From Streptomyces sp. ML-6 (lineage in GTDB: Bacteria > Actinomycetota > Actinomycetes > Streptomycetales > Streptomycetaceae), in NCBI RefSeq assembly GCF_030116705.1, contig NZ_JAOTIK010000002.1, positions 1 to 64,000 on the forward strand: a stretch of 64,000 nt of DNA. Reading direction: 5' to 3'. The notes under the pieces were generated by a model. It had not been told where the DNA came from, searched no databases, and saw nothing but the letters and a program-made list of their open reading frames with translations. This document shows positions 9,238-36,351 of the stretch, in pieces. Both the position numbers and the translations under genes were made by a program. Every line of letters begins with the position of its first letter. Within the stretch, counting starts at the first letter, position 1.

Positions 9238-9699
9238 ATGCCGAACTCGTCCGGCCACCACCGCACCGCCCGGCCCTTACCGGCCCGGGTGCGCAGGAAG
9301 ATCGCAGCGCTCCGCGCCCCGGCATCAGACGGGCCCCTCGTCGTCCCGGTGACCGCGGTGGCGCTGTATGCCGTGGTACCGGTGCCGGGCACCGAACACC
9401 TGGTGCTGCCTCCTCTGGCCGCGCACGCAGAGGCACGGGACTGGAGGGTTCCGGCCGGGTGTGCGGTGACCGACACCGGGCCACTCGACCAGGAGACGGA
9501 GCTGCGGCCGGGCTGGGCACGCATCCGCGCAGCGGTGGACGGCGGCCGGATTTCCGGGATCGTCGTCCCTTCGTTCGCGCACATCGCCTACCGCTGGCAC
9601 GACTGGAACGCGCAACGGTCCTGGCTGCTGGGCCGCAATCTGTTCGTCACCGCCACCGACACGGTCACGGGTCTGGAACCGGAGGAATCACGGGCATGA
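9238..9699 (+). CDS. Small protein, possibly resolvase-like
   Basis: 153 residues, no signal peptide or membrane segment. The C-terminal half (AAVDGGRISGIVVPSFAHIA) recalls the part of serine recombinase N-terminal domains where a conserved strand precedes the catalytic helix. The catalytic serine motif of a resolvase is not evident, so an active recombinase is unlikely. It overlaps the next start by four bases (ATGA), which implies coupling. Such pairs next to XRE/TPR regulators are common in Streptomyces. Confidence 0.5.
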   Translation: MPNSSGHHRTARPLPARVRRKIAALRAPASDGPLVVPVTAVALYAVVPVPGTEHLVLPPLAAHAEARDWRVPAGCAVTDTGPLDQETELRPGWARIRAAVDGGRISGIVVPSFAHIAYRWHDWNAQRSWLLGRNLFVTATDTVTGLEPEESRA

Positions 9700-20471: not shown

Positions 20472-20689
20472 AGTCGTGTAGATTCTCATTGGAGATGTCG
20501 TTGTCTCAGTGTTCTGTCATCAACTTGTCGTCCAGCAGCCCGAGTTACAGGACGGGCTCGACGTAAACGACGAACGTCATCTCGGTTCGAGAACCAGCCT
20601 TTCGCTTGGTTTTCCATGCCTTCCGTGCAGATTCCCGCTGGCCACGCGCCATCGTCCCGGTGTCGGTTCCGCCTACACAAGGGGTCGCT
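20472..20689. other. Likely end of the Tn7-like transposon
   Basis: The 218-base gap between the conjugation operon and tnsA has no gene. It starts TGTCGTTGTC at about 20496 and contains several TGTC-rich, partly repeated segments (20496-20540, and inverted around 20560-20580), as expected for TnsB-binding ends of Tn7-like elements. The matching far end was not found, so the boundary is tentative. Confidence 0.35.
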
Positions 20690-21440
20690 GTGGCACGCGC
20701 TTCGAGCCAGAAGAGCACGACAGAAGGTGAGACGGTCTCGGTCCGCTACCGGCAAGCGGATGGCCAGTTCGTTGAAGCGGTCCTGGACCGCCTCATCGTT
20801 CCCGAGGTGACCGGCGGCCTGCCGGTACGGGATTTCCGCTGGTACAAGGGCCGTCGTCATTACTCGGGCTGGTACCACGCCGCCACAGTGGGGCGGCTGG
20901 TGGCCTACGAGAGCCGGTTGGAGCTGGCTCGGATTCTGCTGGCCGATTTCGACCGCGGTGTCGTGGAGATCGCCTCCCAGCCCTTCCAGCTGGCCGGTCG
21001 TGACGGTGACCGGCTTCGGCGGCACATCCCTGACCTGCTGCTTGTCCACTCTGACGGTCTGGTGACCGTCGTCGATGTCAAAGCCCCTCACGCATGAAGG
21101 ACCCGAAAGTGACTGCACAGTTCGCCTGGACGAAGCGCATCTGCGCTCGTCGCGGCTGGTCCTACGAGACCTGGTCGGGCGGCGATCGGGCCGTGGTGGA
21201 GAACGTACGGTTCCTCGCGGGCTACCGGCGCCCTCAGCTGCTGGAGATGGACCGGGCGCCGGCAGTGCTCGCGGCGGCCCGGGGCCAGTCGACCATCGGC
21301 GGCATCGAGGCGGCCCTGGCCGCTCGGTTTCCGGCACATGCGGTCCGTCCGCTGGTGCTGCACCTGATCTGGTCGGGAGCCCTGGTCGCGGACCTGCGGC
21401 GCCCCTGGCGGCGGCCACCTCGATCGAGGTGGCGTCATGA
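20690..21440 (+). pseudogene. tnsA: TnsA-like endonuclease, broken in two places
   Basis: From GTG 20690 (AGGGG upstream) the catalytic domain shows the PD-(D/E)xK set: Glu in YESRLELARILL, Asp in RHIPDLLLVH and Lys in VVDVKAPHA. TGA at 21095-21097 then stops it, overlapped by ATG 21094, and the C-terminal domain (KDPKVTAQFAWTKRICARRG) continues in that new frame. Near 21405 a second shift leads to the natural end LAAATSIEVAS, whose stop overlaps the tnsB start. TnsA makes the 5' strand cuts that free the transposon. The ATGA overlap at 21094 could allow a split protein; two indels are the simpler reading. Confidence 0.75.
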
Positions 21441-23491
21441 CCGGCCGGGCAGTGACCGTCTTCCCGGGGGTGCGGCTGCTCTACTGCGGCGACGTGGCCG
21501 AGGTTGTCGAGCTGGAAGGACTCACGGCCACGCTGCGCAACGAGCGGACGGGTGAGTTCAGCACACTGCCGCTCGGGCGGTTGGCGGCCGACGCCCGGTC
21601 CCTGGGGGCGGGGAGTGAGCCGGAGACGCAGGATGGGTCTGTCCTGCTGGCGAACCTGTCCCCGGCCCGGCGGGCGAGGCTGCATGAGAGGGCTCGGCAT
21701 GTCCGGGAGGTGCTGACCGGCTTCCGAGCCGGGCACCCGGACGGCGCCGCGGCCGACGAGCCGCGCCCGCAGTTCCAGCCGGATCTGCCGCTCGGGGACC
21801 GCACCGCGGCCAAGGCGACGGAGCTGAAGGTCTCACCTCGGACGATCGACCGGTGGGTGGCTGCCTACCGTGAAGCAGGCGAGGCCGGGCTGGTGGACGC
21901 CCGAGCCGTCAAGGGCCGGGGTTCGCGGGTGGATCCGCGCTGGGAGGAGGCCCTGCGCTGGGTGCTGGCCGAGTTGGTGAACGCCTCTACCCCCACCCGG
22001 TCCGCGGTGCTGCGCCGCACCGAAGATCGACTGGAAGAGGAGTTCGGGGCCGGGACGGTGCCTCTTCCCTCGCGCGCTACGGCCTACCGGCGCCTGGCGG
22101 AGCTGACGAAGGGCACGAGCGCGGTGTCCGGCAGTGCCAAGTCCCGCCGCTCGATCGCGGACCGGCCCCGCGGCGCCTACGGTCGGCTGCGGGCGACGCG
22201 GCCGGGTGAGTACGTGGTGCTCGACACGCAGGACCTGGACATCTACGCGATGGAGCCGGTCACCTGCCGCTGGGTTCCCGTCCAGCTCACTGTCGCCCAG
22301 GACCTGTTCTCCCGCTGCATCGTGGGCCTGCGGGTGACAGCGTGCTCCACCAAGGCGGTCGACGTCGCCGGGGTGCTGTTCGAAGCCGTCTGCCCGCCCA
22401 TGGACACTGCGGACCGCCCCGAGCTCGCTCCCTATCACGGGCTGTGGGACCACGTGGTGTTCACCGAGGAGGACGCGGTTCCCGGGCGGGGGCTGTGTCC
22501 GCCGGAGACGCTGGTCGTCGACCACGGCAAGGCATTCATGTCGGCCCACGTGATCAGTGTCTGCACCCGGCTGGGCATGTCGATCCAGCCTGCCCAGCCG
22601 AAGAAGCCCACCGACAAGCCAACCGTCGAGCGCTTCTTCCGAACGCTGCGGGAGGGGCTGATCCAGCATCTGCCCGCCTACAAGGGCCCGGACATCCACA
22701 GCCGCGGGGAGAGGATCGAGGACCAGGCGTTCTTCTACCTCCACGAGGTCGAGGAGATCGTCCGCGAGTGGATCAGCGAGGTGTTCCACCGCCGCGCCCA
22801 TGAGGGACTCACCGTCCCGCACTGGCCCCACCTGCAGTTGTCCCCGCTGGAGATGCTCCGCGTCGGAGTGCACCGGGCCGGACGGCTGCGGATGCCCGCC
22901 ACCGCCGAGCTGGCCTTCGAGTTCCTGCAGGTCAGGCCGCGCACCATTCAGCACTACGGCGTCGATGTCGACGGGCTGCGTTACAACGGGCCCGCGCTGG
23001 ACGGGCTGCGCGGGACGACGAGCCCCTACGGCGGGCGTCTGGCCGGGCGGTGGCCGATCCGCGTCAACCCCGACGACGTGCGGTTCGTCTACTTCCAGGA
23101 CCCCGACGACGGCTCCTGGCATGCCCTGGAATGGGAACACGCTCCCGCGCTGAACATGGCCTTCAGCACCGAGGCCGCCGCCTACGCCCGGCGGCTGGCC
23201 GCCCGCACCGGACGGCACATCGATGCCTCGAAGGCTCTGGGAGATCTGCTGGCCCGCTGGGACCAGGGGCTGGTCACCGACCGCCGCGAGCGTCGCATGG
23301 CGGTGCGGCTGTCGGCCGAGCGGGCCGCGCTGTCCCTGCCCACCCTGCCGGACCAGGCCACGGCCACGAGCCGGCCGGAGCTGACGGTGGTGCCAGATCC
23401 TCCCCTCGGCGACAGCGACGACGAGGACGAGCTCTTCGATGCCCCGCAGGGCGAGGACTACTACGCCGATGCCTTCGAGGTGATCGAATGA
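21437..23491 (+). CDS. tnsB: TnsB-like DDE transposase of a Tn7-like element
   Basis: 684 residues. Helix-turn-helix segments occupy the N-terminal third (AAKATELKVSPRTIDRWVAA). The retroviral-integrase-like core has Asp263 (VVLDTQDLD), Asp362 (LVVDHGKAF) and Glu398 (PTVERFFRTLREG), 35 residues between the last two as expected. A Mu-type beta-barrel domain follows, and an acidic tail that could bind the TnsC ATPase. It should bind the transposon ends and join them to target DNA. The gene is intact and overlaps both neighbours by four bases. Confidence 0.9.
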   Translation: MTGRAVTVFPGVRLLYCGDVAEVVELEGLTATLRNERTGEFSTLPLGRLAADARSLGAGSEPETQDGSVLLANLSPARRARLHERARHVREVLTGFRAGHPDGAAADEPRPQFQPDLPLGDRTAAKATELKVSPRTIDRWVAAYREAGEAGLVDARAVKGRGSRVDPRWEEALRWVLAELVNASTPTRSAVLRRTEDRLEEEFGAGTVPLPSRATAYRRLAELTKGTSAVSGSAKSRRSIADRPRGAYGRLRATRPGEYVVLDTQDLDIYAMEPVTCRWVPVQLTVAQDLFSRCIVGLRVTACSTKAVDVAGVLFEAVCPPMDTADRPELAPYHGLWDHVVFTEEDAVPGRGLCPPETLVVDHGKAFMSAHVISVCTRLGMSIQPAQPKKPTDKPTVERFFRTLREGLIQHLPAYKGPDIHSRGERIEDQAFFYLHEVEEIVREWISEVFHRRAHEGLTVPHWPHLQLSPLEMLRVGVHRAGRLRMPATAELAFEFLQVRPRTIQHYGVDVDGLRYNGPALDGLRGTTSPYGGRLAGRWPIRVNPDDVRFVYFQDPDDGSWHALEWEHAPALNMAFSTEAAAYARRLAARTGRHIDASKALGDLLARWDQGLVTDRRERRMAVRLSAERAALSLPTLPDQATATSRPELTVVPDPPLGDSDDEDELFDAPQGEDYYADAFEVIE

Positions 23492-24063
23492 GGCAGCCGC
23501 ATCTGTTCAGCCTCTCCCGCAAGGAGGGCTGGCGCCGCTTCGTCGACGAGCCGGCCCGGCAGCGCCCCGCGACCCTCACCCGGCGCCAGCTGGCGGCCCT
23601 GGGCGAGGAGGCGGCCGAGGACTACAACGACGCCCGGCACGACTGGCATGCCAACTTCGGCATCGTGCAGACACCCCAGCTGGCCTCCGTCCACGATGCG
23701 TTGGACGAGATCGTCGCGTCCAACCGGCAAGACGGCGACCGCATCCGTTCCGCGGCCGTCATCGACGCCCTGCCGGGTCTGGGCAAGACCACCATCGCCA
23801 ACCTCTTCGGCCGCACCTTCGACCGCCAGCAGATGCGCCGCCTGGGCCAGGTCACCGACGCCGGGCACGAGCGCATCCCCGTCTTCCGTGTCGGGCTGAC
23901 CTCCAACACCACACTGCGGACCCTGAACCGGATGATCTGCGAGTTCTACGGCCACCCGGCCGCCGACCGCGCCAATGCCGCCACCTTGGCCAGTCACGCG
24001 CTCGACTGCGTTCTATCCTGCGAGTCCCAGCTGGGGATCATCGACTTTACCGACCGCCCGTAG
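23488..24063 (+). pseudogene. tnsC: TnsC/TniB AAA ATPase, N-terminal part, cut by insertion
   Basis: The first 186 residues of a TnsC-type ATPase, with Walker A DALPGLGKTT near residue 96. The family sequence stops at LGIID (codon 24043-24045), the start of Walker B, and is followed by six foreign codons read from the inserted transposon. The remainder of the gene resumes at 31319 as DIHLLDTRTRV. Joined, the halves give about 352 residues, the normal length. TnsC selects the target and activates TnsB, so loss of Walker B should abolish transposition. Confidence 0.9.
24046..24057 (+). repeat. Left terminal inverted repeat of the Tn554-like element
   Basis: TTTACCGACCGC, the exact reverse complement of 31301-31312. 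A related copy lies 68 bases inside at 24114-24124. Confidence 0.9.
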
Positions 24064-24168
24064 TCCTGCCCGTGATGTCCGTCTGGGACTGTGACCAGCA
24101 CGTCCTGGGCTTGTTTACCGACCGGGTCCGGGACGTCTGTCATGTTCTGGAGTCGGTACGGAGGACAA

Positions 24169-25347
24169 GTGGTACGGCACGTTGTGGTGGGGGACCTGAG
24201 GGTCCAGCGGATCGAGCGGAAGGACGGGCAGCGGTCATGGACGATCGTCTGGCCCGAGGGAACACTGCACGCGGAGGCGGACCGGTTCCTGCGTGAGCAC
24301 GAGGGCTCGGGCACGCAGAGGACGTACGCGTACTACCTGGTGGACCACCTGCGGTGGCTGGAGCGCGAGTGCCTGGCCTTCGACACGGTCCAACTGCGTG
24401 ACCTGGAACGGTATATGGGGATCGTCGGCGCCGAGGTCCGCATACCGCTCGGGGAACCGTGGCGGGTGGGCAAGCGCCCCTACGGCCGCTCGGCGCTGTC
24501 GACCGCGGCGGCCTGCTTGAAGGGCTTCTACCTGCAGCAGGCTTCTCGCGGCATCAACGGCGAACTCGGCAAGAAGCTCGACAAGTCCCGTCTGCCGACG
24601 CGGGCCGACAAGCGCCGCTCGTTCCTCGGGCACGTGAAGAACAAGCTGCCGACCAACCCACTGGCACCGAAGGGGCCGCACCGCCGGCACCCGAAGATGC
24701 TGCCGGAAAAGGCCAGGGAGAGGCTGCTGGGGACAGTGAACGCCGCCCGGGACCGGCTGGTTATCGACTGGCTCGCCGACGGCGGACTTCGGATCGGCGA
24801 ACTCTGCGGGCTGCACCTGGTCGACCTGCACCTGCGCGAGAACGCGGCCTGCGGCGAGTGCCGCACCCCGCACCTGCACGTCTGCCACCGGCCCGGCAAC
24901 CCGAACCGGGCCGAGGCCAAGACCAAACATCCCTGGCGGGTCGAGCGCGGGACGGTGACCGGCGGGCTGATCAAGCGGGTCAGCCCGGCGATGGTGCACT
25001 CCTACTTCGAGTACATGACGACCGAGTACCCGCGGGGCGCCGGGCACGGCATGCTCCTGGTCCAGCTGCACGGCGCCGATAGCGGCCAGCCGTGGGCTCC
25101 GGTCGGCGCCCGCCGGATGCTCGGCCGGGCCGGGAAACGCGCCGGGTTGGGGCTGGTGAAACCCCATGCCTTCCGGCACACCTTCACCTCGGCGGTTCTC
25201 GATGCCGCGGACGGCAACACCCTGATCGCCCGGGACGCCGGCGGCTGGGCGTCGGCCGCGATGGTCGATGAGGTCTACGGGCACGTCGATGTCCACGACC
25301 CGGTCTTCGATGCCGCGCTTCGCACGGTCTGGGGTGAGACGAAGTGA
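24169..25347 (+). CDS. tnpA: Tyrosine recombinase, TnpA of the Tn554-like element
   Basis: About 392 residues from GTG 24169, which has GGAGG upstream; ATG 24142 is an alternative. An N-terminal SAM-like core-binding domain (GTQRTYAYYLVDHLRWLERE) is followed by the catalytic domain with Arg208 (GGLRIGELCGL), His333 and Arg336 (HAFRHTF) and nucleophile Tyr370 (VDEVYGHVD). A small Cys/His cluster (CGECRTPHLHVCH) is inserted in the catalytic domain. It acts with TnpB to cut and rejoin the element ends. The gene overlaps tnpB by four bases. Confidence 0.88.
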   Translation: MVRHVVVGDLRVQRIERKDGQRSWTIVWPEGTLHAEADRFLREHEGSGTQRTYAYYLVDHLRWLERECLAFDTVQLRDLERYMGIVGAEVRIPLGEPWRVGKRPYGRSALSTAAACLKGFYLQQASRGINGELGKKLDKSRLPTRADKRRSFLGHVKNKLPTNPLAPKGPHRRHPKMLPEKARERLLGTVNAARDRLVIDWLADGGLRIGELCGLHLVDLHLRENAACGECRTPHLHVCHRPGNPNRAEAKTKHPWRVERGTVTGGLIKRVSPAMVHSYFEYMTTEYPRGAGHGMLLVQLHGADSGQPWAPVGARRMLGRAGKRAGLGLVKPHAFRHTFTSAVLDAADGNTLIARDAGGWASAAMVDEVYGHVDVHDPVFDAALRTVWGETK

Positions 25348-27965
25348 CCGCGAACTCGCTGCTGCCCCTCTACACCGAACGTTCCGACCGCGAGGGCCGT
25401 GACAGGCTGGAGATCCTCACCGCGCTGATCAGTGCCCCCTTTTTCGACCCGATCTTCCGTGGAGTACTCGTCCGGGTTCCCCAAGACCACTCCGTCTACC
25501 AGTGGGGATGCGTCGTCGGCGCCTGCGAACGCGTCCGCTCCGGAGGGACGGACCTGTGCTCCAACCATCTCCGGCAGTGGGGAAAGGCGCGGGAATCGGG
25601 CACGACCCGGGCGGAGTTCCTCACTGCGGCACAGCCGCTGTCCCGGGCCGAGTTCGAGCGCGAGGGCCCGTGCTCGATCTGCCCCGATCGGCCGGCGGAG
25701 CCGCGAACCGACCTGCGGTTGTGCCGCGCCCACTACAGCTCCTGGAAGTACTACGTCGCCCCGCGCGATTCCGGGGCGGACTTTGAGCAGTGGGCTGCTG
25801 AACAGGAGCCCCGCGGGGGTTACGGCAACTGCAAGGTCACGGTCTGCCCCGGGCTGGCGGAGTCGCCGCTGGGTTTGTGCAGCTGGCACTGGCACCGTTA
25901 CAAGCGCGACCGCCGCCCCGGCGGGGCGGCCCTTCCGGCCAGCTGGTGGCAGCGATACGAGAGCCAGGGACGCTCCGTCCCCGTCTCCTGCACGGACGAG
26001 AACGCCTTCCGCACCTGGTGCGCGAGGGTCGATCCGGCCCCGAGGCCGGGACTGGTCAACCTGCGCGGTCTGCGGCCGCTGCTGCGAGCCGAGATCCAGT
26101 ACACCCTGTTCGCCCACACCCAGCAGGACCGGCACAGCATCTGGCGCCTGGACTGGATCCAGAAGCTCGTCAACCTCGCGCGAGAGCGCGACGCCGGCTC
26201 GCTGACCGACCTGGACTTGGACGACTTCCCGCGGTTTCACACCTCGATTGTGAAGAAGATGCTCCACTACCTGCGGCTGGTCTACTTCACCCCCGAGCAG
26301 ACGCGGGACGCCGGGTTCCTCGAGACCGACCACTTCGGCATCCGCTTCCCTCACCGGGCCAGCCACATCGACCTGACCCGCATCACCCAGCGCTGGCTGC
26401 GTGACCTGCTCTGGGACTACACCGCCGAGCTCATCCGCTCGCCCCACCGCCCACGCACCGCAGTGCCCATCGACGGCATCCGCCGGGCCTGCACCGAGCT
26501 GAGCGCGTTCATAGAGGTCGACGCCCCCGGCGGCGGCCACGACCCGAGCGCCTTGCGGGTGGAGCACATGCACCGGTTCATCGCCGATCAGCGCCATCGT
26601 GAACGCCACGGGCTGCCCTCGCTGGTGATGAAGGGGCTCTACGGAAAGCCGTCGACGGTCACCTCCGTCACCCGCACCGACGTGTTCAACGGCGTCCGCA
26701 AGCTGCTGCGGAACGCGATGGAGAACGGCGCCGCCGAACGGCTCGGCCTGGACCGCGAGTTCATCATCGCCATGCCATTCGCCGGCGGCGAGCCGCTGCG
26801 AGCCCGGCGTCCGTTTCCCGACGAGGTCGCCCGAGCCCTGGCCGACGAGGCCAACCTCGCCCAGCTCACAGAGCAGTACGACCCCGATGACCAGGGGATG
26901 CGGGACGTCTGGGAGACCATCGTGCTGACCGGCCGCCGCGTGAACGAGGTCCTCAAGCTGCGCTGGAACTGCATCGGCCGCTACGGCGGCCTGCCGATGT
27001 TCTGGCACGACCAGACCAAGGTCGGCAACTACGACACCGCAATCCGTATCCCCGACCGGCTCTACGACCTCCTCGCCGAACGGCAGCGCAAGACACTGGA
27101 CCGGTTCGTCGCCCGGCACGGACGCCGCCCGACCGGCACCGAACGCGCTCAGCTTGCCCTGTTCACCAGCAAGGTCCGCAACCCCGACGGCGCTACCGCT
27201 CTGTCCTACCAGTGGTTCCACCGAAGGTTCCGGGAGTGGGCCACCGAGCTCGACCTCGGCCAGCTCGTCCCCCATCAGGCTCGCCACACTCTGGCCACCA
27301 GCCTGCTTCGGGCCGGGGCGAGCCTCACCCACATCCGCCGCTATCTCGGCCAGGTCTCGGACCGGATGGCCGAGCACTACGTCCACCTGACCAGCGAAGA
27401 CCTGGAGAACGTCCTCCAGCACGTCTGGGTCACCGGCCCCGGCACCGCCCAACCCGGCGAACTCCTCGCCGGAGAGACCACCCCACTCACCCGAGAGCAG
27501 GCCCAGGCCCTCGCCATCGACCTCTCACGCCGCAGCACCCCCTCCGAGGGCGGGTTCTGCACCTTCCAGCCCGTCGTCGACGGCGGCGCCTGCCCCTGGA
27601 ACCTCGACTGCCACAACTGCGACAAGTTCGTCCTCTCCGGCGCCGACCTCCTCTACTGGCGGCGCAAACGCGAACAGTGGCGGCTGCTGGCCGAAGGCGC
27701 CCCGGACGACGCGATCGCCGACTATCTCCACCGCTACTTCGAGCCCACAGCCCGCGCCATCGACGGCCTGGAGAAGGCCCTGGTCGGCCTCGGCCTCCTC
27801 GGCGACGCCCTCGCCCTTGACCTGCGCAAACCCCAGGACTACTTCCACCGCGTGTGGTCCACGGCCTTCCGCGCCGCCGACCTCGCCGACGCGGGCGACG
27901 ACGAGCAGAGCGAGTACAGCGATACGTGCACAACCGACAACGACCCCGAGCAGGACATCGCATGA
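25344..27965 (+). CDS. tnpB: Tyrosine recombinase, TnpB of the Tn554-like element, with zinc-finger regions
   Basis: 873 residues, longer than the roughly 630 of staphylococcal TnpB. The N-terminus has three Cys-rich units with similar spacing (CVVGACERVR...LCSNH, CSICPDRPAE...LCRAH, CKVTVCPGLA...LCSWH), which look like small zinc fingers. The catalytic domain lies at about 480-690, with Arg in TGRRVNEVLKL, HxxR in HQARHTL and Tyr near residue 679 (AEHYVHLT). A further Cys group (CPWNLDCHNC) follows and then a helical tail. It probably forms a hetero-complex with TnpA. Confidence 0.88.
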   Translation: MTANSLLPLYTERSDREGRDRLEILTALISAPFFDPIFRGVLVRVPQDHSVYQWGCVVGACERVRSGGTDLCSNHLRQWGKARESGTTRAEFLTAAQPLSRAEFEREGPCSICPDRPAEPRTDLRLCRAHYSSWKYYVAPRDSGADFEQWAAEQEPRGGYGNCKVTVCPGLAESPLGLCSWHWHRYKRDRRPGGAALPASWWQRYESQGRSVPVSCTDENAFRTWCARVDPAPRPGLVNLRGLRPLLRAEIQYTLFAHTQQDRHSIWRLDWIQKLVNLARERDAGSLTDLDLDDFPRFHTSIVKKMLHYLRLVYFTPEQTRDAGFLETDHFGIRFPHRASHIDLTRITQRWLRDLLWDYTAELIRSPHRPRTAVPIDGIRRACTELSAFIEVDAPGGGHDPSALRVEHMHRFIADQRHRERHGLPSLVMKGLYGKPSTVTSVTRTDVFNGVRKLLRNAMENGAAERLGLDREFIIAMPFAGGEPLRARRPFPDEVARALADEANLAQLTEQYDPDDQGMRDVWETIVLTGRRVNEVLKLRWNCIGRYGGLPMFWHDQTKVGNYDTAIRIPDRLYDLLAERQRKTLDRFVARHGRRPTGTERAQLALFTSKVRNPDGATALSYQWFHRRFREWATELDLGQLVPHQARHTLATSLLRAGASLTHIRRYLGQVSDRMAEHYVHLTSEDLENVLQHVWVTGPGTAQPGELLAGETTPLTREQAQALAIDLSRRSTPSEGGFCTFQPVVDGGACPWNLDCHNCDKFVLSGADLLYWRRKREQWRLLAEGAPDDAIADYLHRYFEPTARAIDGLEKALVGLGLLGDALALDLRKPQDYFHRVWSTAFRAADLADAGDDEQSEYSDTCTTDNDPEQDIA

Positions 27966-28549
27966 AGACCTCTGCCGTTCCAGAACCCCGCACGGCCGCC
28001 GCCCTGGCCGCCCGCCGCCACAAGACCGAGACCGCCCTGAAGCGGGTCCGTGAAGCCATCATCCGGCTCCGGCGTGAGAAGGCCCAGGTCAGCGTGACCG
28101 CCGTCGCCCGTCGAGCGGACGTCTCCCGCACCTTCCTCTACGACAATCCCGAGGCCAGAGCCGTCATCGCCTCCGCGATGGCCGAGGCTGGAGAGCGCCG
28201 GACCCAGTTGCTCGCCGACCAGGGCGAGGAACGTGAGGCGACCTGGCGTGAACGCGCTCTGAATGCCGAAGACGCCCTCAAGACCGCTCACAGCGAGATC
28301 CTCGCCCAGCGGAATCGCATCGGTGAACTCATCGGCCAGGTGCGGGACTTGGAGGCCGAATGGGCCGAGGAGGCCGTCCAGCGGATCACTACCGAGAACA
28401 CCACCCTCAAACAGCGAGTCCGTCAGCTCACGGCCGACAACCGCAGCCTTGACGAGCGGCTCAAGGCGGCCCGCTCCAACCTCCGCTTCCAGGACCGCCG
28501 CGTCGCTGACCTCGAAGCCCGGATCGTTGACCCAGCGTCAGGCATCTGA
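27962..28549 (+). CDS. tnpC: TnpC-like DNA-binding coiled-coil protein
   Basis: 195 residues from ATG 27962 (ATGA overlap with tnpB). The N-terminal half has a helix-turn-helix (VSVTAVARRADVSRTFLYDN). The second half is a long coiled coil (NRIGELIGQVRDLEAEWAEE onwards). This matches the third gene of Tn554-type elements (DUF6262-like), which affects the frequency and orientation of insertion. It completes the tnpA-tnpB-tnpC operon. Confidence 0.8.
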   Translation: MKTSAVPEPRTAAALAARRHKTETALKRVREAIIRLRREKAQVSVTAVARRADVSRTFLYDNPEARAVIASAMAEAGERRTQLLADQGEEREATWRERALNAEDALKTAHSEILAQRNRIGELIGQVRDLEAEWAEEAVQRITTENTTLKQRVRQLTADNRSLDERLKAARSNLRFQDRRVADLEARIVDPASGI

Positions 28550-28573
28550 CCTCGCCTTCGCTCTTCCGGCCTC

Positions 28574-28605
28574 ATGGCCCGTTCTCCGTCCGGTGGACGG
28601 GCCAT
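28574..28605. terminator. Bidirectional hairpin between tnpC and ptuB
   Basis: ATGGCCCGT (28574-28582) pairs with ACGGGCCAT (28597-28605). It lies between convergent genes and can serve both strands. Confidence 0.7.
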
Positions 28606-28634
28606 GTCGGCGTACACGTGAAAGTGGCCTGCAG

Positions 28635-29476
28635 TCACTCCAGGAATCCTCCGTTACAGAAGGCACCATCCGCTGCGAGGGTCCGGTAGGTCACGCCTTC
28701 CCACCCGTTGGGTTGGACAGCGAGTCGAGTGGCGGCTTCGGCCGCGAGGTATTCGTGCACGAGCTCCTTGCCGCCAGCCTTGAACTGTCCTTCGAGGGTG
28801 TGTTGGATGTTCCTCAGGGTCCGGTTGGCCTGCACTGCGTAGGTCTTCGCCAACCCGAACATAGTGAAGTGGTGCGTGGCCCGGGCTATGAGGCCCTGCC
28901 CCCATGTTGGTGGCGGGGTCACGAAGAACTCCAGCCGCACGGGGGCGTCGTGAATGACTTTGGCCTGCAGCCAGGTCACGTCGTCGATACGGTCGAGATA
29001 CGGGTGTAAAGGTGTGGTCTCAACCGTGGTCGGCTTTTGATCGCCTTTGATGTGGTTGCAGTCGCTGCAGGCTGGCACCAGATTGAGTGGGGCCACGCAA
29101 AGAGCGGGGAAGGACATCTTAGGCAGGACGTGGTCGAGCTGACGGACGGTTCCGTGCCCGCACAGGGGGCACCTCTCGTCGACGGGGGCGCCCATGAGCT
29201 TGTCATAGATTAGGCGGCCCTTTTGGTTCCCCGCATCCCGTTCTCGTACGCCCAGGTCACGGCGGCCTTGTCGTCGATGCCTGGAACCTTGAACTCGGCG
29301 GCTTCCAGGGCGTGCAACGTCTGGCTGTGGGCTGCTTCCCGGAAGCGCTCTCCTGCAGCTTCGACGGCTTCGGCCGCGGCTGTCAACTTCTCTTGCCGAC
29401 TGGTGTCCCGGGTGCTGCTCACACATGCGTCGTAGCTCTCGCGGGCTGTCTCGGCGGGGGGCTCCAGCGGCCACAT
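28635..29476 (-). pseudogene. ptuB: PtuB-like HNH nuclease of a Septu system, one frameshift
   Basis: From ATG 29476, overlapping the ptuA stop, the product starts MWPLEPPAETARESYDACVS. It reads to VTWAYENGMRGTK, where the frame closes after four codons. The continuation KGRLIYDKLMG lies one frame back at the run CCAAAAGGG (about 29218). The HNH nuclease with its Cys pairs follows (CPLCGHGT, DHVLPK, CSDCNHIKG). In Septu, PtuB is the effector nuclease that assembles with PtuA. One missing A in the A-run would restore about 280 residues, so this may be an assembly error. Confidence 0.75.
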
Positions 29477-31034
29477 CAGCGGCTCTCTCCTGCGGCCTTG
29501 TCTGCGAGGAGGATCCGCACCAGCCCCTTGGCCTCGCCGCCCAGCTGGCCGCCGAAGTGGGCAAGGACTTCTTCGTAGGTGCCATGGGCCCTGACCGCCC
29601 TTTTGACTTCCGCGTAGAAGCCGGACTCCTTCACCTCCAAGCCGAAGATCTCGTGTGTGAGGACACCGACGTTCTCACCGAAAGTCTCGATGGTGGGCCG
29701 CTCGGCCTGACGGTTGCCCCAACGGCTCAGTTTCCAGATGCAGGAGCGGGGGACCTCTTGGAGGACGACAGGGGAGTGGGTGGCGATGACCGCGACTGCG
29801 TTGCGGTCATCCATCAGGTACGACAACGTCCTGATGAAGGAAGATAGGAGCGGTGGGTGCAGGTGGGCCTCGGGTTCGTCTAGGAGCACCAGGGACTGCT
29901 CGGCCACGAGCGTGGCCAGCTTCGTGATGGTCAGCAGCACGATCGAGTGGCCTGAACTGAGTTGGCCAAAGATCCTTCGGGCTGCCTCTTGATCGCTCTC
30001 CGTGAATGTCTGTGGCGACTGCTCACGGAGGCGTCGAGCGAAGTCATGGACGGGGAGGCGGCGAAATGCGGGTCACTGCTCAGAATGCGCAGGGCATGGA
30101 CCCACCGTCCGAGCCGTCCGGCCGCCCAAACCTCTTTGAGGCAACTGGCGAACTCCGAGCCCAGTTGTTCATGTGATTTGGGCTCGCCGAGGTTGTTCCC
30201 AGCGCTAGCGAGCCCCACGTACGCGTACGTGGTCGCTGCGTGGTCGGGGTCGCCAACCACACTGACGAAGGGGTCGAAGGCACTGAAGGTGACGGAGACG
30301 ACGTTGACGAAGGGTTCACCGTCCTCCGCGGTGGGGGTGGGGAGGTGTTCGATTCGGCCGGCATTGACGTCGGCGCGGTCAGGGTGGACGGCCGCTTGGG
30401 CCATGTTGCGCAGCAGGGTGGTTTTGCCGACTCCGTTGCGTCCGATCAGGACGTGAATGTTGCTGGACGGGGTGGTGCGGGGGGTGACCACGAAGCTGAG
30501 TGGCGGGGGCGGCGGGACGTCGCTGTCTGGCGCGGGAACGAGGTAGTTGAAGCGGTACTCGGTGAGCCGGGAACCACCGCTGGCGATGCGCTTGAACTGG
30601 GCCATGACCGTACGCTTCTCGACGCTGCGCAGCAGCGAGAGGGCCGTCACGTCGTATTGGAGGGCGAAGTCCAGACGCTTTGATGAGAGAGCGATATCAC
30701 CCAGTCCGATGAGGATCTCCAAGCGTACCTGGGTGCCGAGTTTCCTGATGCTGTCGTAGTACAGGTCGTCTTGGCCCAGGGAGAACAACTCGGGCCTGCG
30801 GAGGGAGTCAAGGTGCTCGAACTGCCCTACGGGGAGGGGACTGGGCCCCGGTTCCTGGGCGCCGAGGGCGATCTTGACGCGGCCCAGGCGCTGGATCTGT
30901 CTGTTTTCGTCCCGAAACCAGAGGTCGTAGCTGGTCTGGTAGCCGTGGTCGTCCCCGGCAACTGGGACGAGGATGGCTTCTTGGGGGCCTTCGTCCGACG
31001 GGGACTGTCGATCGGCTTGGACCACGAATCGCAC
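29476..31034 (-). pseudogene. ptuA: PtuA-like AAA ATPase of a Septu system, one frameshift
   Basis: From GTG 31034, with AGGAG upstream, a SMC/Rad50-like ATPase. Walker A is IGRNGVGKTTLLRN; Walker B and D-loop are LVLLDEPEAHLHPPLL; the switch His is in VIATHSP. The frame changes near 30063: SSDPHFAASPSM should continue RRLPVHDFARRLRE in the other frame. A single lost C in TTCGCCGCC explains it. PtuA binds nucleotide and holds PtuB; Septu protects against phages. Gene order ptuA-ptuB with a 1-base overlap matches known systems. Confidence 0.75.
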
Positions 31035-31318
31035 AGGGTCTCCTGGGAGCCACTCAGGGGCGCCGAGCCTTGACGAAGCGGATGCGGCGCCGGGACTCGT
31101 GAACGGTATCTGGTCCTGGGGCCTGGTAGCGGCGTGTATTCAACTGCCGTGAGTTGAGCCCGTTCATCAATACTCGGCTGAACTTCGGGGAGTACGCGGA
31201 CAGCCGTCTCACGAGACCACACAGACGAACGACAGCAACTCTCCATCACGGACATGTAGTCTATGAATCGTCGCAGTTCAGAGCCGGTTTCCGAGCTCCT
31301 GCGGTCGGTAAACTGGAC
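31035..31318. other. Right end of the Tn554-like element
   Basis: No gene of its own. It contains the ptuA promoter region, the terminal repeat at 31301-31312 and the 6-bp core CTGGAC at 31313-31318. An open frame that runs into the tnsC remainder is fortuitous. Confidence 0.6.
31301..31312 (-). repeat. Right terminal inverted repeat of the Tn554-like element
   Basis: GCGGTCGGTAAA, exact reverse complement of the left end at 24046-24057. Confidence 0.9.
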
Positions 31319-31819
31319 GACATCCACCTCCTGGACACCCGCACCCGCGTGGGCGCCGAGACGTCCGACCAGATGAAGTACCTGTCCGAACGTGTCGGCG
31401 CCACCTTCGTCTACGCCGGAGTCGCCGTCGAGGACTCGCCCCTGCTGAGCGGAATCCGCGGGGCGCAGCTGGCGGGGCGGTTCAAGCTCCTGTCCAACCC
31501 TCCCCTGGCATACGGGAGTCGGGAGCAGCAGGCAGCGTGGCGCGGGCTGCTGGACGGCATGGAGAACGCGCTGCGTCTTGAGCGGCACCGTCCCGGATCG
31601 CTGGGGCGCATGGCCCGCTATCTGCACGAGCGCACCGGCGGGCGGCTCGGGAGTCTGTCCGCGCTGATCCGCGAAGGAGCGATCACCGCGATTCTGGACG
31701 GCACCGAGAAGATCACCAAGAAACAACTCGATGCCGTCCGTCTCGACCATCTCGCTGAGCAGGATGCACGGCCCCCAGCCGAGCAGGCCCCGTCCGGCCA
31801 CTCCCGGACGGCCGCCTGA
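31319..31819 (+). pseudogene. tnsC: TnsC/TniB AAA ATPase, C-terminal part
   Basis: 166 residues that continue the tnsC half ending at 24045. It opens with DIHLLDTRTRV, the rest of Walker B, and keeps the sensor-like region GATFVYAGVAVEDSPLLSG and the C-terminal TnsB/TniQ-facing domain (GSLGRMARYLHERTGGRLGS). No start codon or ribosome site of its own is evident, so it is probably not translated as a useful protein. TniQ lies 98 bases downstream. Confidence 0.85.
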
Positions 31820-31917: not shown

Positions 31918-33021
31918 ATGCCCCTGTCCCCACCTGTCCAAAGCCGCCTGGCCGCGGGCGCGATACGCACCGCGCCCCTCGAAGGCGAGACGACCGCTTC
32001 ATGGATCACCCGGTGCGCAGCCCGCTACCACCTGCCCGCAAGTCCTTACCTCCGAGCCGTCCTTCAGCAAGAGGGCCGCGCCACTGTGAGCGGCCGGAGC
32101 GCGCTGGGCGCCGAGCTCTACCTCAATGCCGCGGCCCGCGAACGCGTGGCCGCCTACAGCCGCATCGAGGAGCAGGTCCTGGCACGCGTACTGCCCGCCT
32201 GGCCGCTCGACCTGGATGTTCTACGGCACCACACCGGGCCGGCCGCGCACTGGCAGTCCCCCACCACGCACACGGCCGCGTCGGTCATGGCCGGGTGCCT
32301 CAAATGCACCGCACCACGCAGCCGCGGACAGCAGGTATGGCAGTACCGGGGCCGGCACCAGCGCGTCTGCCACACGCATCGCATCTGGCTCGTCGGCGGC
32401 GAGGCGGGCTACACCGGACCGACCCAGATACCGCTCGATCACCTGGGCCAACACGAAGCCGCCCGCATCCTGGCCGCACACCGACGCCACCAGGACCTCA
32501 CCGACCCAGGCGGCATAGCCGCCGAGGCGTGGCTGTGGGCCCGCGGCACCATCCAACACCTCTACACCGACCAGAAATTGATGTCGGGCACTGTGCCGGT
32601 TTCGTGGAACAAGCGCCTTGACGCCCTGGCCGCACAGGCCGGTCGTATGGGCAAGGTGTGGCCGTGGTGGATCATCGCCCGCGACCTGGTCACCTATCCC
32701 GAGACCTTCGCTCTGGCCGAAGCCCTCACCGCGATGACCGCGGACGCGGACGCGTACCAACACGCCGCAGCCGAAGAGCACTTGGCTGGCCTTCTGTCCG
32801 ACGCACTCCGGACGAACACCGGCCCAGACCCCGCCGACGAGGCGGGAACCCTCGCTCGATGGCTCGCCCGACACGCACGCAGCGAACTACAGCGCTGGCT
32901 GAACAGCCGCCACGGCGACGCGAGCGCGGCACCCCTGCACGTGGCGCCCCTGACCTGGGCCCTCAAACGACACGCCGACCGTCAGGGCTGCGAGGCGGAC
33001 GGGGTGTCCGGCCCGGTGTAA
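31918..33021 (+). CDS. tniQ: TniQ/TnsD-family target selector
   Basis: 367 residues from ATG 31918; an in-frame TGA lies 15 bases upstream. The N-terminus (APLEGETTASWITRCAARYH) is the TniQ opening motif. A zinc-binding pair, CLKC with CHTH, follows. The C-terminal half is helical and would bind target DNA. In Tn7-like elements this family picks the insertion site and recruits TnsC. There are no Cas genes nearby, so a CRISPR-guided version is not supported. The 3' end overlaps the convergent GNAT gene by 40 bases. Confidence 0.8.
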   Translation: MPLSPPVQSRLAAGAIRTAPLEGETTASWITRCAARYHLPASPYLRAVLQQEGRATVSGRSALGAELYLNAAARERVAAYSRIEEQVLARVLPAWPLDLDVLRHHTGPAAHWQSPTTHTAASVMAGCLKCTAPRSRGQQVWQYRGRHQRVCHTHRIWLVGGEAGYTGPTQIPLDHLGQHEAARILAAHRRHQDLTDPGGIAAEAWLWARGTIQHLYTDQKLMSGTVPVSWNKRLDALAAQAGRMGKVWPWWIIARDLVTYPETFALAEALTAMTADADAYQHAAAEEHLAGLLSDALRTNTGPDPADEAGTLARWLARHARSELQRWLNSRHGDASAAPLHVAPLTWALKRHADRQGCEADGVSGPV

Positions 33022-35556: not shown

Positions 35557-36351
35557 TCAGGCGGCGGGCTGTAGGACGGTGTGGACGGCGGCGAGGGCCT
35601 GGAGCCGGTCGGCCACGGCATCCGGGCCGAGAGCCGCAAGGGCCCACAGGGCACTGAGCTGGCTGCCGGAGGAGCAGATATTGATCAACGGCGGCCGGAA
35701 CGGCGCCACGGCGATGTTCCGGGCGGCGAAGGGTGCGGGGTCGAGATAGGTCATGCCACCGGTCCCGCACAGATACGCGCGGGCGCCGGTCGCGGCGGAG
35801 AGGCCCGCGAGCCGGACGGATCGGCCCGGCCGGGACGGGAGTTGGCTGCTGGTGAGGATCTGGCCCTTCCAGCCGAGCAGGTCCAGCAGGACGCGGGTGG
35901 AGATCTCGGCGACCGTCGCGGTCCGGCCGGTGGTGAAGGCGTCCAGCACCGGGTCCAGGGCCTTCGCGAGGGCGGGCCAGTGGGGGCTGGAGCCGTAGTG
36001 CTGCCGCAGCATCCCGGCGGTTCGGCGGCAGGCCAAGGCAGGGTCGTCGATCCGGGCGTCCCGGATGAGGGTGGGCCGCCCATTGGGGAGGTGGGTGGGG
36101 ATGGTGAGCCACTGCTGGCGGGCCGGGTCGTCGAGGTCGGCGAGACGGGCTCGGTGCTGGTAGTCGCGGCGGGTGAACTGCACGTCGTCCAGGACGATCC
36201 AGCAGTCCGCCGCGAACAGCTTGGCCAGCGTCGTCAGTCTCGGGAACACATTGGGCTGGTGGATCGCGCACAGCCCGCCCGGGGCGGGCAGGTCACGAGG
36301 TGATGAGGCGGCTGGTGAAGCCGTCGGCGATGAGGGATTCGTACGCGGCAT
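35557..36351 (-). CDS. WbqC-family protein
   Basis: 264 residues from ATG 36351. The diagnostic N-terminal block is CAIHQPNVFPRLTTLAKLFA, then DCWIVLDDVQFTRRDYQHRA and WLTIPTH, all typical of the WbqC-like family found in surface-sugar and natural-product clusters; its chemistry is not firmly known. It overlaps the YdcF-like gene by 59 bases, so a later start is possible, though no better one is seen. The C-terminus includes RFPPLINICSSG-like segments (here FRPPLINICSSGSQLSALWA). Confidence 0.75.
   Translation of the reverse strand: MPRTNPSSPTASPAASSPRDLPAPGGLCAIHQPNVFPRLTTLAKLFAADCWIVLDDVQFTRRDYQHRARLADLDDPARQQWLTIPTHLPNGRPTLIRDARIDDPALACRRTAGMLRQHYGSSPHWPALAKALDPVLDAFTTGRTATVAEISTRVLLDLLGWKGQILTSSQLPSRPGRSVRLAGLSAATGARAYLCGTGGMTYLDPAPFAARNIAVAPFRPPLINICSSGSQLSALWALAALGPDAVADRLQALAAVHTVLQPAA

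Follow-up and report, generated by a model that had tools for sequence, protein, structure and literature searches.

Investigation of the first 64,000 nucleotides of contig NZ_JAOTIK010000002.1 of Streptomyces sp. ML-6 (GCF_030116705.1), hereafter the window, revealed a Tn554-like element of 7,267 bp which splits the tnsC gene of a Tn7-like transposon exactly at its Walker B codons, bearing out the claim of an earlier sequence-only reading that a Tn554-type trio is inserted there. With a probability of roughly 0.8, we interpret it as a Tn554-type element which uses a degenerate site at the codons of active-site strands, carries imported cores and has made tnsC a recombination hub. The bounding inverted repeats, two tyrosine recombinases, third gene and ATPase-HNH pair described in the sequence-only reading were all recovered, the genes matching Phage_integrase (twice), DUF6262 and PtuA/PDC-M01A/B. 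The ends and recombinase genes of the element are as follows.

24046..31312, plus strand: Tn554-like element, 7,267 bp, with perfect 12-bp inverted ends
24046..24057, plus strand: left terminal repeat TTTACCGACCGC
24091..25347, plus strand: TnpA, the shorter tyrosine recombinase (Phage_integrase, E 3.2e-13)
24114..24125, plus strand: subterminal direct copy TTTACCGACCGG, 68 bp inside the left end (second TTTACCGACCG copy)
25344..27965, plus strand: TnpB, the long tyrosine recombinase (Phage_integrase, E 3.6e-15), with three N-terminal Cys/His quartets
27962..28549, plus strand: TnpC, a coiled-coil DUF6262 protein (E 8.6e-11)
31301..31312, plus strand: right terminal repeat GCGGTCGGTAAA

TnpA, TnpB and TnpC are encoded in a single operon, as in Tn554-type elements. 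The catalytic residues are present in TnpB, and R234, H359, R362 and Y396 of TnpA were invariant across 25 sequences; the TnpA start in relatives lies about 26 codons further in than the start annotated in the window. The TnpB quartets (C56-C61-C72-H75, C110-C113-C127-H130 and C163-C168-C179-H182) were at least 93% conserved over the 80 relatives having a long open frame. The exact terminal 12-mer has eight matches in the 9.13-Mb genome, corresponding to both ends of four copies on contigs C1 to C4 (the window being the start of C2), compared with a single match for the reversed, uncomplemented 12-mer used as a control. All three tnp genes are open in C2; the C3 copy has a broken TnpA, and the C1 and C4 copies have a broken TnpB. 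Paired TTTACCGAC copies 68 bp apart were also found in relatives (e.g., loci L019, L022, L025, L026, L030, L032, L033, L035 and L039), and the subterminal copy at 24114..24125 is possibly an accessory recombinase site.

Regarding the interrupted transposon, tnsA, tnsB, tnsC and tniQ are present in order, as in Tn7-like transposons, but as a hybrid of two lineages, labeled type 174 and type 178 (G numbers denote surveyed genomes).

20606..21097, plus strand: TnsA-like endonuclease, N-terminal part (NCBIfam NF033179, E 3.6e-36; 80-86% to type-174 relatives G034 and G175)
21437..23491, plus strand: TnsB-like DDE transposase (Mu-transpos_C; 88/87/74% to type-174 relatives)
23488..24045, plus strand: left half of tnsC, type 174, ending QLGIID (AAA_22 6-91, TniB 11-126; 91/91/87% to type-174 relatives)
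24040..24045, plus strand: left 6-bp core ATCGAC, the native target core, identical in the three closest uninterrupted tnsC genes (3/3)
31313..31318, plus strand: right 6-bp core CTGGAC (GTCGAC in the uninterrupted type-178 tnsC of G077), read as imported from an earlier site
31319..31819, plus strand: right half of tnsC, type 178, starting DIHLLD (91% to G077 and G289; 37-40% to type-174 relatives)
31918..33021, plus strand: TniQ-like gene of the type-178 transposon (Pfam TniQ, E 2e-07; 77% to G077, 72% to G289)

The tnsA frame is split in the window (20606-21555), its continuation at 21094-21555 lying in another frame.

Joining the flanks with either core keeps the reading frame and gives 352 codons with LGI(I/L)DDIHLLD at the junction; the rejoined, normal-length TnsC proposed earlier stands as regards frame and length, but its halves derive from two lineages and the product is a hybrid. 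The three closest uninterrupted tnsC genes (65-69% identity) all carry ATCGAC at the same codons, as had been anticipated, and match base for base up to and from the junction, while more distant tnsC genes carry other cores. In the uninterrupted tnsC of locus L204, the left flank and the right flank of the C3 copy are exactly continuous (9529 to 9530), and this continuity, together with the unequal cores, shows an insertion with no target duplication and an imported right 6-bp core, as for Tn554-type elements. Wherever the native core is known, it is the left one (ATCGAC in the window and in C3) and the right one is foreign (GTCGAC in C3; CTGGAC in the window vs. GTCGAC in the type-178 gene of G077). 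Unequal left and right cores were detected in 22 of 41 distinct elements including that of the window. Such inequality is expected from the 'att-brought-in' mechanism, in which the target core stays on the left and the donor core is placed on the right; in the accessible part of the source this is described for Tn552-II and said to agree with Tn554 (PMC12486829), and by analogy it may operate here. At locus L113, the right core GACCGC and the left core GCGGTC are reverse complements of each other, as would be expected had that element left a site of the same type but facing the other way.

Relatives were surveyed in 392 genomes of the genus, 47 of which contain TnpA at E<=1e-40. A total of 126 loci (47 around the TnpA-positive genomes and 79 named, with overlap) was considered, and left ends were placed for 104 elements including the window (67 relatives by the repeat and 36 by hand), of which 88 were distinct by their 24-bp left flank; in the 23 of 126 loci left unplaced, the left end was not fixed, the contig started there, or the copy belonged to a subgroup whose flank is constant. 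At 84 of the 88 distinct sites, the element falls between two codons. At 69 forward sites, the second core codon encodes D or E in 51 cases and N in four, and at least three of the four residues preceding this D/E/N are hydrophobic at 47 of 68 scorable forward sites, compared with 249 of 20,116 other positions of the same frames (1.2%) under the same strand-plus-acid test. The target classes below are our own motif labels, with a Pfam check on 30 proteins only, some of them unmatched.

tnsC/TniB/AAA_22, Walker B: 13 of 88 sites
ComM, Walker B: 11 of 88 sites, in both orientations (ComM by Pfam for L168)
tnsB: 10 of 88 sites, in both orientations
nuclease-like VIVE-YKR gene with a DUF5655 match: 9 sites
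HAD, LLFLDVD-G (motif I): 7 sites
MvdD-type ATP-grasp, FLE-CNP: 4 sites
glycosyltransferase 2: 2 sites
single cases, e.g., DNA ligase, HD domain, creatininase, 3-hydroxyacyl-CoA dehydrogenase and PCMT

By Pfam, the interrupted AAA protein ends at AAA_22 position 91 or TniB position 126 in the window and at the forward sites L107, L129, L155, L119, L130 and L121, and at the reverse-oriented site L131 it starts at AAA_22 position 90. Homing on a conserved ATPase motif, as first suggested, holds in that the same residue is struck in other tnsC/TniB-like genes, but hydrophobic-strand/acid codons of many non-ATPases and of tnsB are used as well; homing on tnsC only or on ATPases only was rejected, since many target enzymes are not ATPases. 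The insertion points of the TnpA/TnpB homologs are recurrent strand/acid codons rather than the unrelated sites that, in the wording of that suggestion, would have spoken against targeting. By our labels, 23 of the 88 sites lie in tnsC- or tnsB-like genes, and Tn7-type neighbors were detected at 9 of the 12 other tnsC-type sites (not at L131, L130 and L121) and at 9 of the 10 tnsB-type sites (not at L126); the idea that the family parasitizes other transposons is thus supported for this part of it.

Regarding the DNA signal, with a single site taken from each family, T is seen at -14, -11, -8 and -5 and GA at -3/-2 in the left arm, and the right side favors GA immediately after the core. When the tested gene family was left out of its training, a site matrix placed the rejoined site of the window at rank 1 of 75,306 positions; of the 39 sites, 25 scored within the top 1% and 12 within the top 0.1%. 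The sites share a DNA signal which is not fully symmetric and which, in GC-rich genes, nearly equals a hydrophobic strand plus acid. On a tree of 85 of the 88 TnpA proteins (three were too short), the target label changes 23 times compared with a mean of 49.7 for shuffled labels, a value as low being reached in none of 200 shuffles; target class follows the tree yet has switched repeatedly. HAD has one origin, and the starred branches force at least five label changes for tnsC and at least six for ComM, counts which are weakened by near copies and by the labels being our own.

The two halves of the window's tnsC have different origins. Identity between the window and C3 ends at the right end of the element. 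To its left, TnsA, TnsB and the N-terminal half of TnsC match the type-174 genomes G034, G175 and G252, and the right flank in C3 matches the same genomes (C-terminal half of TnsC 92, 84 and 90%; TniQ 77, 72 and 56%), whereas the C-terminal half of TnsC in the window is 37-40% identical to type-174 genomes vs. 91 and 91% to G077 and G289. No full-length tnsC in the 392 genomes exceeds 69% identity to the joined protein, and the reading of the window's tnsC as one interrupted gene was rejected because its halves match two different Tn7-like lineages. Genome G289 has a whole 4.7-kb element on its contig C111, ending GGTCGGTAAA-ATCGACGA, and its contig C106 starts with CATCCATCTCC of the type-178 tnsC, from which we infer, across the contig break, an insertion at the same codons of the type-178 gene. 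Since the flank lineages differ and the G289 element appears to occupy the same type-178 codons, two copies of the element in two different tnsC genes probably recombined, giving the hybrid of the window; C3 keeps the unshuffled parental right half. The reciprocal product was not found in the genome, where the best match to the type-178 N-terminal half is 53% and no further element end is present.

In the proposed explanation, the two tyrosine recombinases that move the element would be TnpA and TnpB, the latter with its zinc-finger-like front, acting together with TnpC, and the site recognized would be a degenerate one consisting of the 6-bp core, a left arm in which T recurs at intervals of three bases and a right arm rich in GA. 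Read in the GC-rich genes of actinobacteria, this pattern would encode a buried hydrophobic strand closed by an acidic residue, as in Walker B and other active-site strands. The circular form would carry the donor core, leaving after insertion the target core on the left and the imported core on the right. Lineages would both keep and switch favorite genes, with tnsC and tnsB of Tn7-like transposons being frequent targets disrupted by insertion, and the copies in two different tnsC genes of this strain would form a recombination hub joining the flanks of two Tn7-like lineages. The observed sites, frame and cross-family motif suggest direct recognition by TnpA/TnpB. More tentatively, and with a likelihood that we put somewhat short of even, the recombinases may have evolved to read the signature of catalytic beta-strands and home on active-site codons, above all those of the Tn7-like motor and transposase, the element then serving as a crossover hub which swaps TnsC/TniQ modules and thereby the choosers of target sites.

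Several points weigh against this explanation. Transposition, the circle and protein-DNA binding are deduced here from sequence, and right ends were identified using the inverted repeat as a search criterion. Thirteen forward sites still lack D/E/N in the second core codon once frames are corrected, and at others the acid is present but preceded by fewer than three hydrophobic residues. The five reverse-oriented tnsB sites fail the matrix (rank 10-74%), and one ATP-grasp site (9%) and one IS transposase site (8%) also rank poorly. The core itself varies, with 14 GTCGAC, 6 CTGGAC, 3 ATCGAC, 3 GTGGAC, 1 CTGGAT and 1 GTTGAC among 28 readable uninterrupted tnsC genes. Sites within one gene family and related TnpA proteins are not independent, nor, because T falls at codon position 2 in GC-rich DNA, are codon phase (84/88) and protein motif. 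It is possible, though appreciably below an even chance, that a short degenerate motif permits insertion anywhere and that the concentration at active sites reflects survival and the codon structure of GC-rich genes: the motif is degenerate, the T-per-codon pattern is what GC-rich hydrophobic codons give, locus L048 carries CTGGAC and ranks at about the top 1% despite having no supported coding frame, and tnsB and tnsC are dispensable to the host, so that survivors would be enriched there. However, the same residue of the same families has been struck again in separate TnpA lineages, as the forced changes for tnsC and ComM indicate, and strand-plus-acid makes up 1.2% of positions, so that the motif alone would be expected to lead into many other genes.

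A misjoined assembly across the repeated element could give the appearance of a chimera, the replicon truly having the C3 arrangement; the same 31-34 kb opens four contigs, and most differences among the copies are single-base indels of the kind that read errors produce. Such an artifact is nevertheless improbable, as the hybrid is present in C1, C2 and C4, which run together to about 34.1 kb, and a wrong path would leave an extra element end or a type-178 left half, whereas the assembly has no second left end and no high-identity type-178 left half (best 53%). Alternatively, the element may be a Tsy transposon or a direct cousin, with YRec corresponding to TnpA, TnsF to TnpB and HTH to TnpC; in the accessible part of their description, Tsy and Tn6022 TnsF comprise YRec, HTH and TnsF, and insertion at the Walker B of comM was shown experimentally (Faure et al., 2023, PMC10293859). 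The two active-looking tyrosine recombinases, the zinc-finger-like front of the long one and the small third protein are suggestive of this kinship, a likeness drawn by description only, and the comM Walker B is the site of 11 of 88 relatives by our labels, the window element lying in tnsC instead. In that account, however, YRec and HTH lie upstream of TnsF, whereas TnpC here is downstream of TnpB and matches DUF6262 only, and Tsy is described as comM-specific with no detectable inverted repeats, while the present family has clear inverted ends and hits many enzyme families including TnsC and TnsB. On balance, membership in or close kinship with Tsy is a serious prospect which we would place slightly on the doubtful side.

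Tn554 itself has one site in radC and is not known to have terminal inverted repeats. With perfect 12-bp inverted ends and 88 distinct sites in many gene families, the present element is therefore classed as Tn554-like and not as Tn554. Tn554-related actinobacterial transposons, with their kinship to Tn554 stated, were defined in 2012 (Van Houdt et al., PMC3414803) and share with the present element the hosts and the trio of an abnormally long recombinase, a normal-size one and a TnpC-related protein. The accessible section of that paper notes a unique site for Tn554 and speculates on several attB sites; a target rule, junction anatomy and insertions in Tn7-like genes, which we report for the present family, are not reported in that section. 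Tn554 and Tn552-II of Staphylococcus likewise have TnpA/B/C, no target duplication and a core brought in on the right, the core being 7 bp in Tn552-II and 6 bp here, as far as the available text goes (PMC12486829). Strand-biased circularizing integrative elements, as described in the part of the source available (PMC10214605), have, as here, multiple core genes of the recombinase type, and a circular form whose junction strand is biased, but are confined to Gammaproteobacteria and have tfp and srap genes, unlike the present element. Literature searches, mostly outside subscription papers, found no active-site targeting beyond PMC10293859; judged by title and abstract start, papers combining Tn554 with Walker B concerned resistance and strain genomics only, the 2012 paper was the only one found for Tn554-like elements with Streptomyces, and the DUF6262 literature was unrelated. 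In a tblastn search of plasmids with TnpB, no name closer than 'tyrosine-type recombinase' occurred among the matches listed. The kind of element (PMC3414803) and Walker B targeting at comM (PMC10293859) are thus already known from the accessible text of these sources; as far as the searches show, what is new is that a single family hits so broad a range of active sites, that tnsC and tnsB repeatedly serve it as hosts, and that a chimeric Tn7-like transposon is joined through the element.

So far, comM is the one gene for which Walker B targeting has been shown. A general rule, if it holds, would explain the wide host and gene range of a site-specific element, because unrelated genes have few conserved stretches in common and active-site codons belong to these. 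Inteins and homing endonucleases use the same conserved-active-site logic, which would be used here by an element that breaks its target gene. The many natural sites would then make the target specificity of Tn554-type recombinases testable and would point genome engineering to recombinases whose specificities are graded, and the hub would offer a concrete route by which Tn7-like transposons become mosaics.

Regarding cargo, two genes lie between tnpC and the right end.

28635..29476, minus strand: PtuB/PDC-M01B-like HNH gene (PADLOC PDC-M01B, E 4.4e-75), frameshifted in the window
29476..31034, minus strand: PtuA/PDC-M01A-like ATPase gene (PtuA, E 1e-68 and 5.1e-66, in two pieces), frameshifted in the window

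The PADLOC matches to PtuA and PDC-M01A/B, the latter being candidate defence families, suggest a Septu-like pair of a PtuA ATPase and an HNH partner, present here as cargo only. That both genes are truly dead was rejected, each being open in at least one of the four copies: the PtuB-like gene has an open 280-aa frame in C1 and C3, and the PtuA-like gene a single continuous frame in C4. Elsewhere in the family, the distance from the tnpC match to the right end is below 250 bp in 6 of 40 resolved relatives. Ten cargo proteins of relatives comprised, by Pfam, two APH-type phosphotransferases (in the elements of L097 and L118), one nucleotidyltransferase, one aldo/keto reductase, one FtsX_ECD, one CHAT and four unmatched proteins, and in a partly overlapping set of ten, a PADLOC match of any kind was obtained for two, in one case a weak one. 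On this basis, we rejected defence cargo as a family trait, and the spread of phage defence claimed in the sequence-only reading does not extend to the family in general.

The assembly consists of five contigs (9.13 Mb), C2 measuring 994,925 bp, and on all four contigs C1 to C4 a Tn7-like transposon has its tnsC split by the 7,267-bp element. The copies differ mostly by single-base indels, and such single-base differences among near-identical copies look like read errors. The first ~34.1 kb are common to C1, C2 and C4 and 31.3 kb are shared by C3, at 99.94-99.98% identity, as if the ends of linear replicons had been exchanged or copied (window 1-34100). Further along, a minus-strand frame at 35557-36351, which we take to be WbqC-like, contains CWIVLDDVQF, and a similar RWIILD precedes the relative element L159; from this likeness, the frame may be an unused target. 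A TnpA subgroup (L072, L074, L077-L079, L082, L084, L094, L158, L160-L162, L164, L165, L170 and L172) has the constant left flank GTGAGGGTGACGGAC or a near variant, and its Streptomyces scabiei members L078 and L079 lie about 8 kb from both chromosome ends; this subgroup is possibly a trio that has settled at telomeres.

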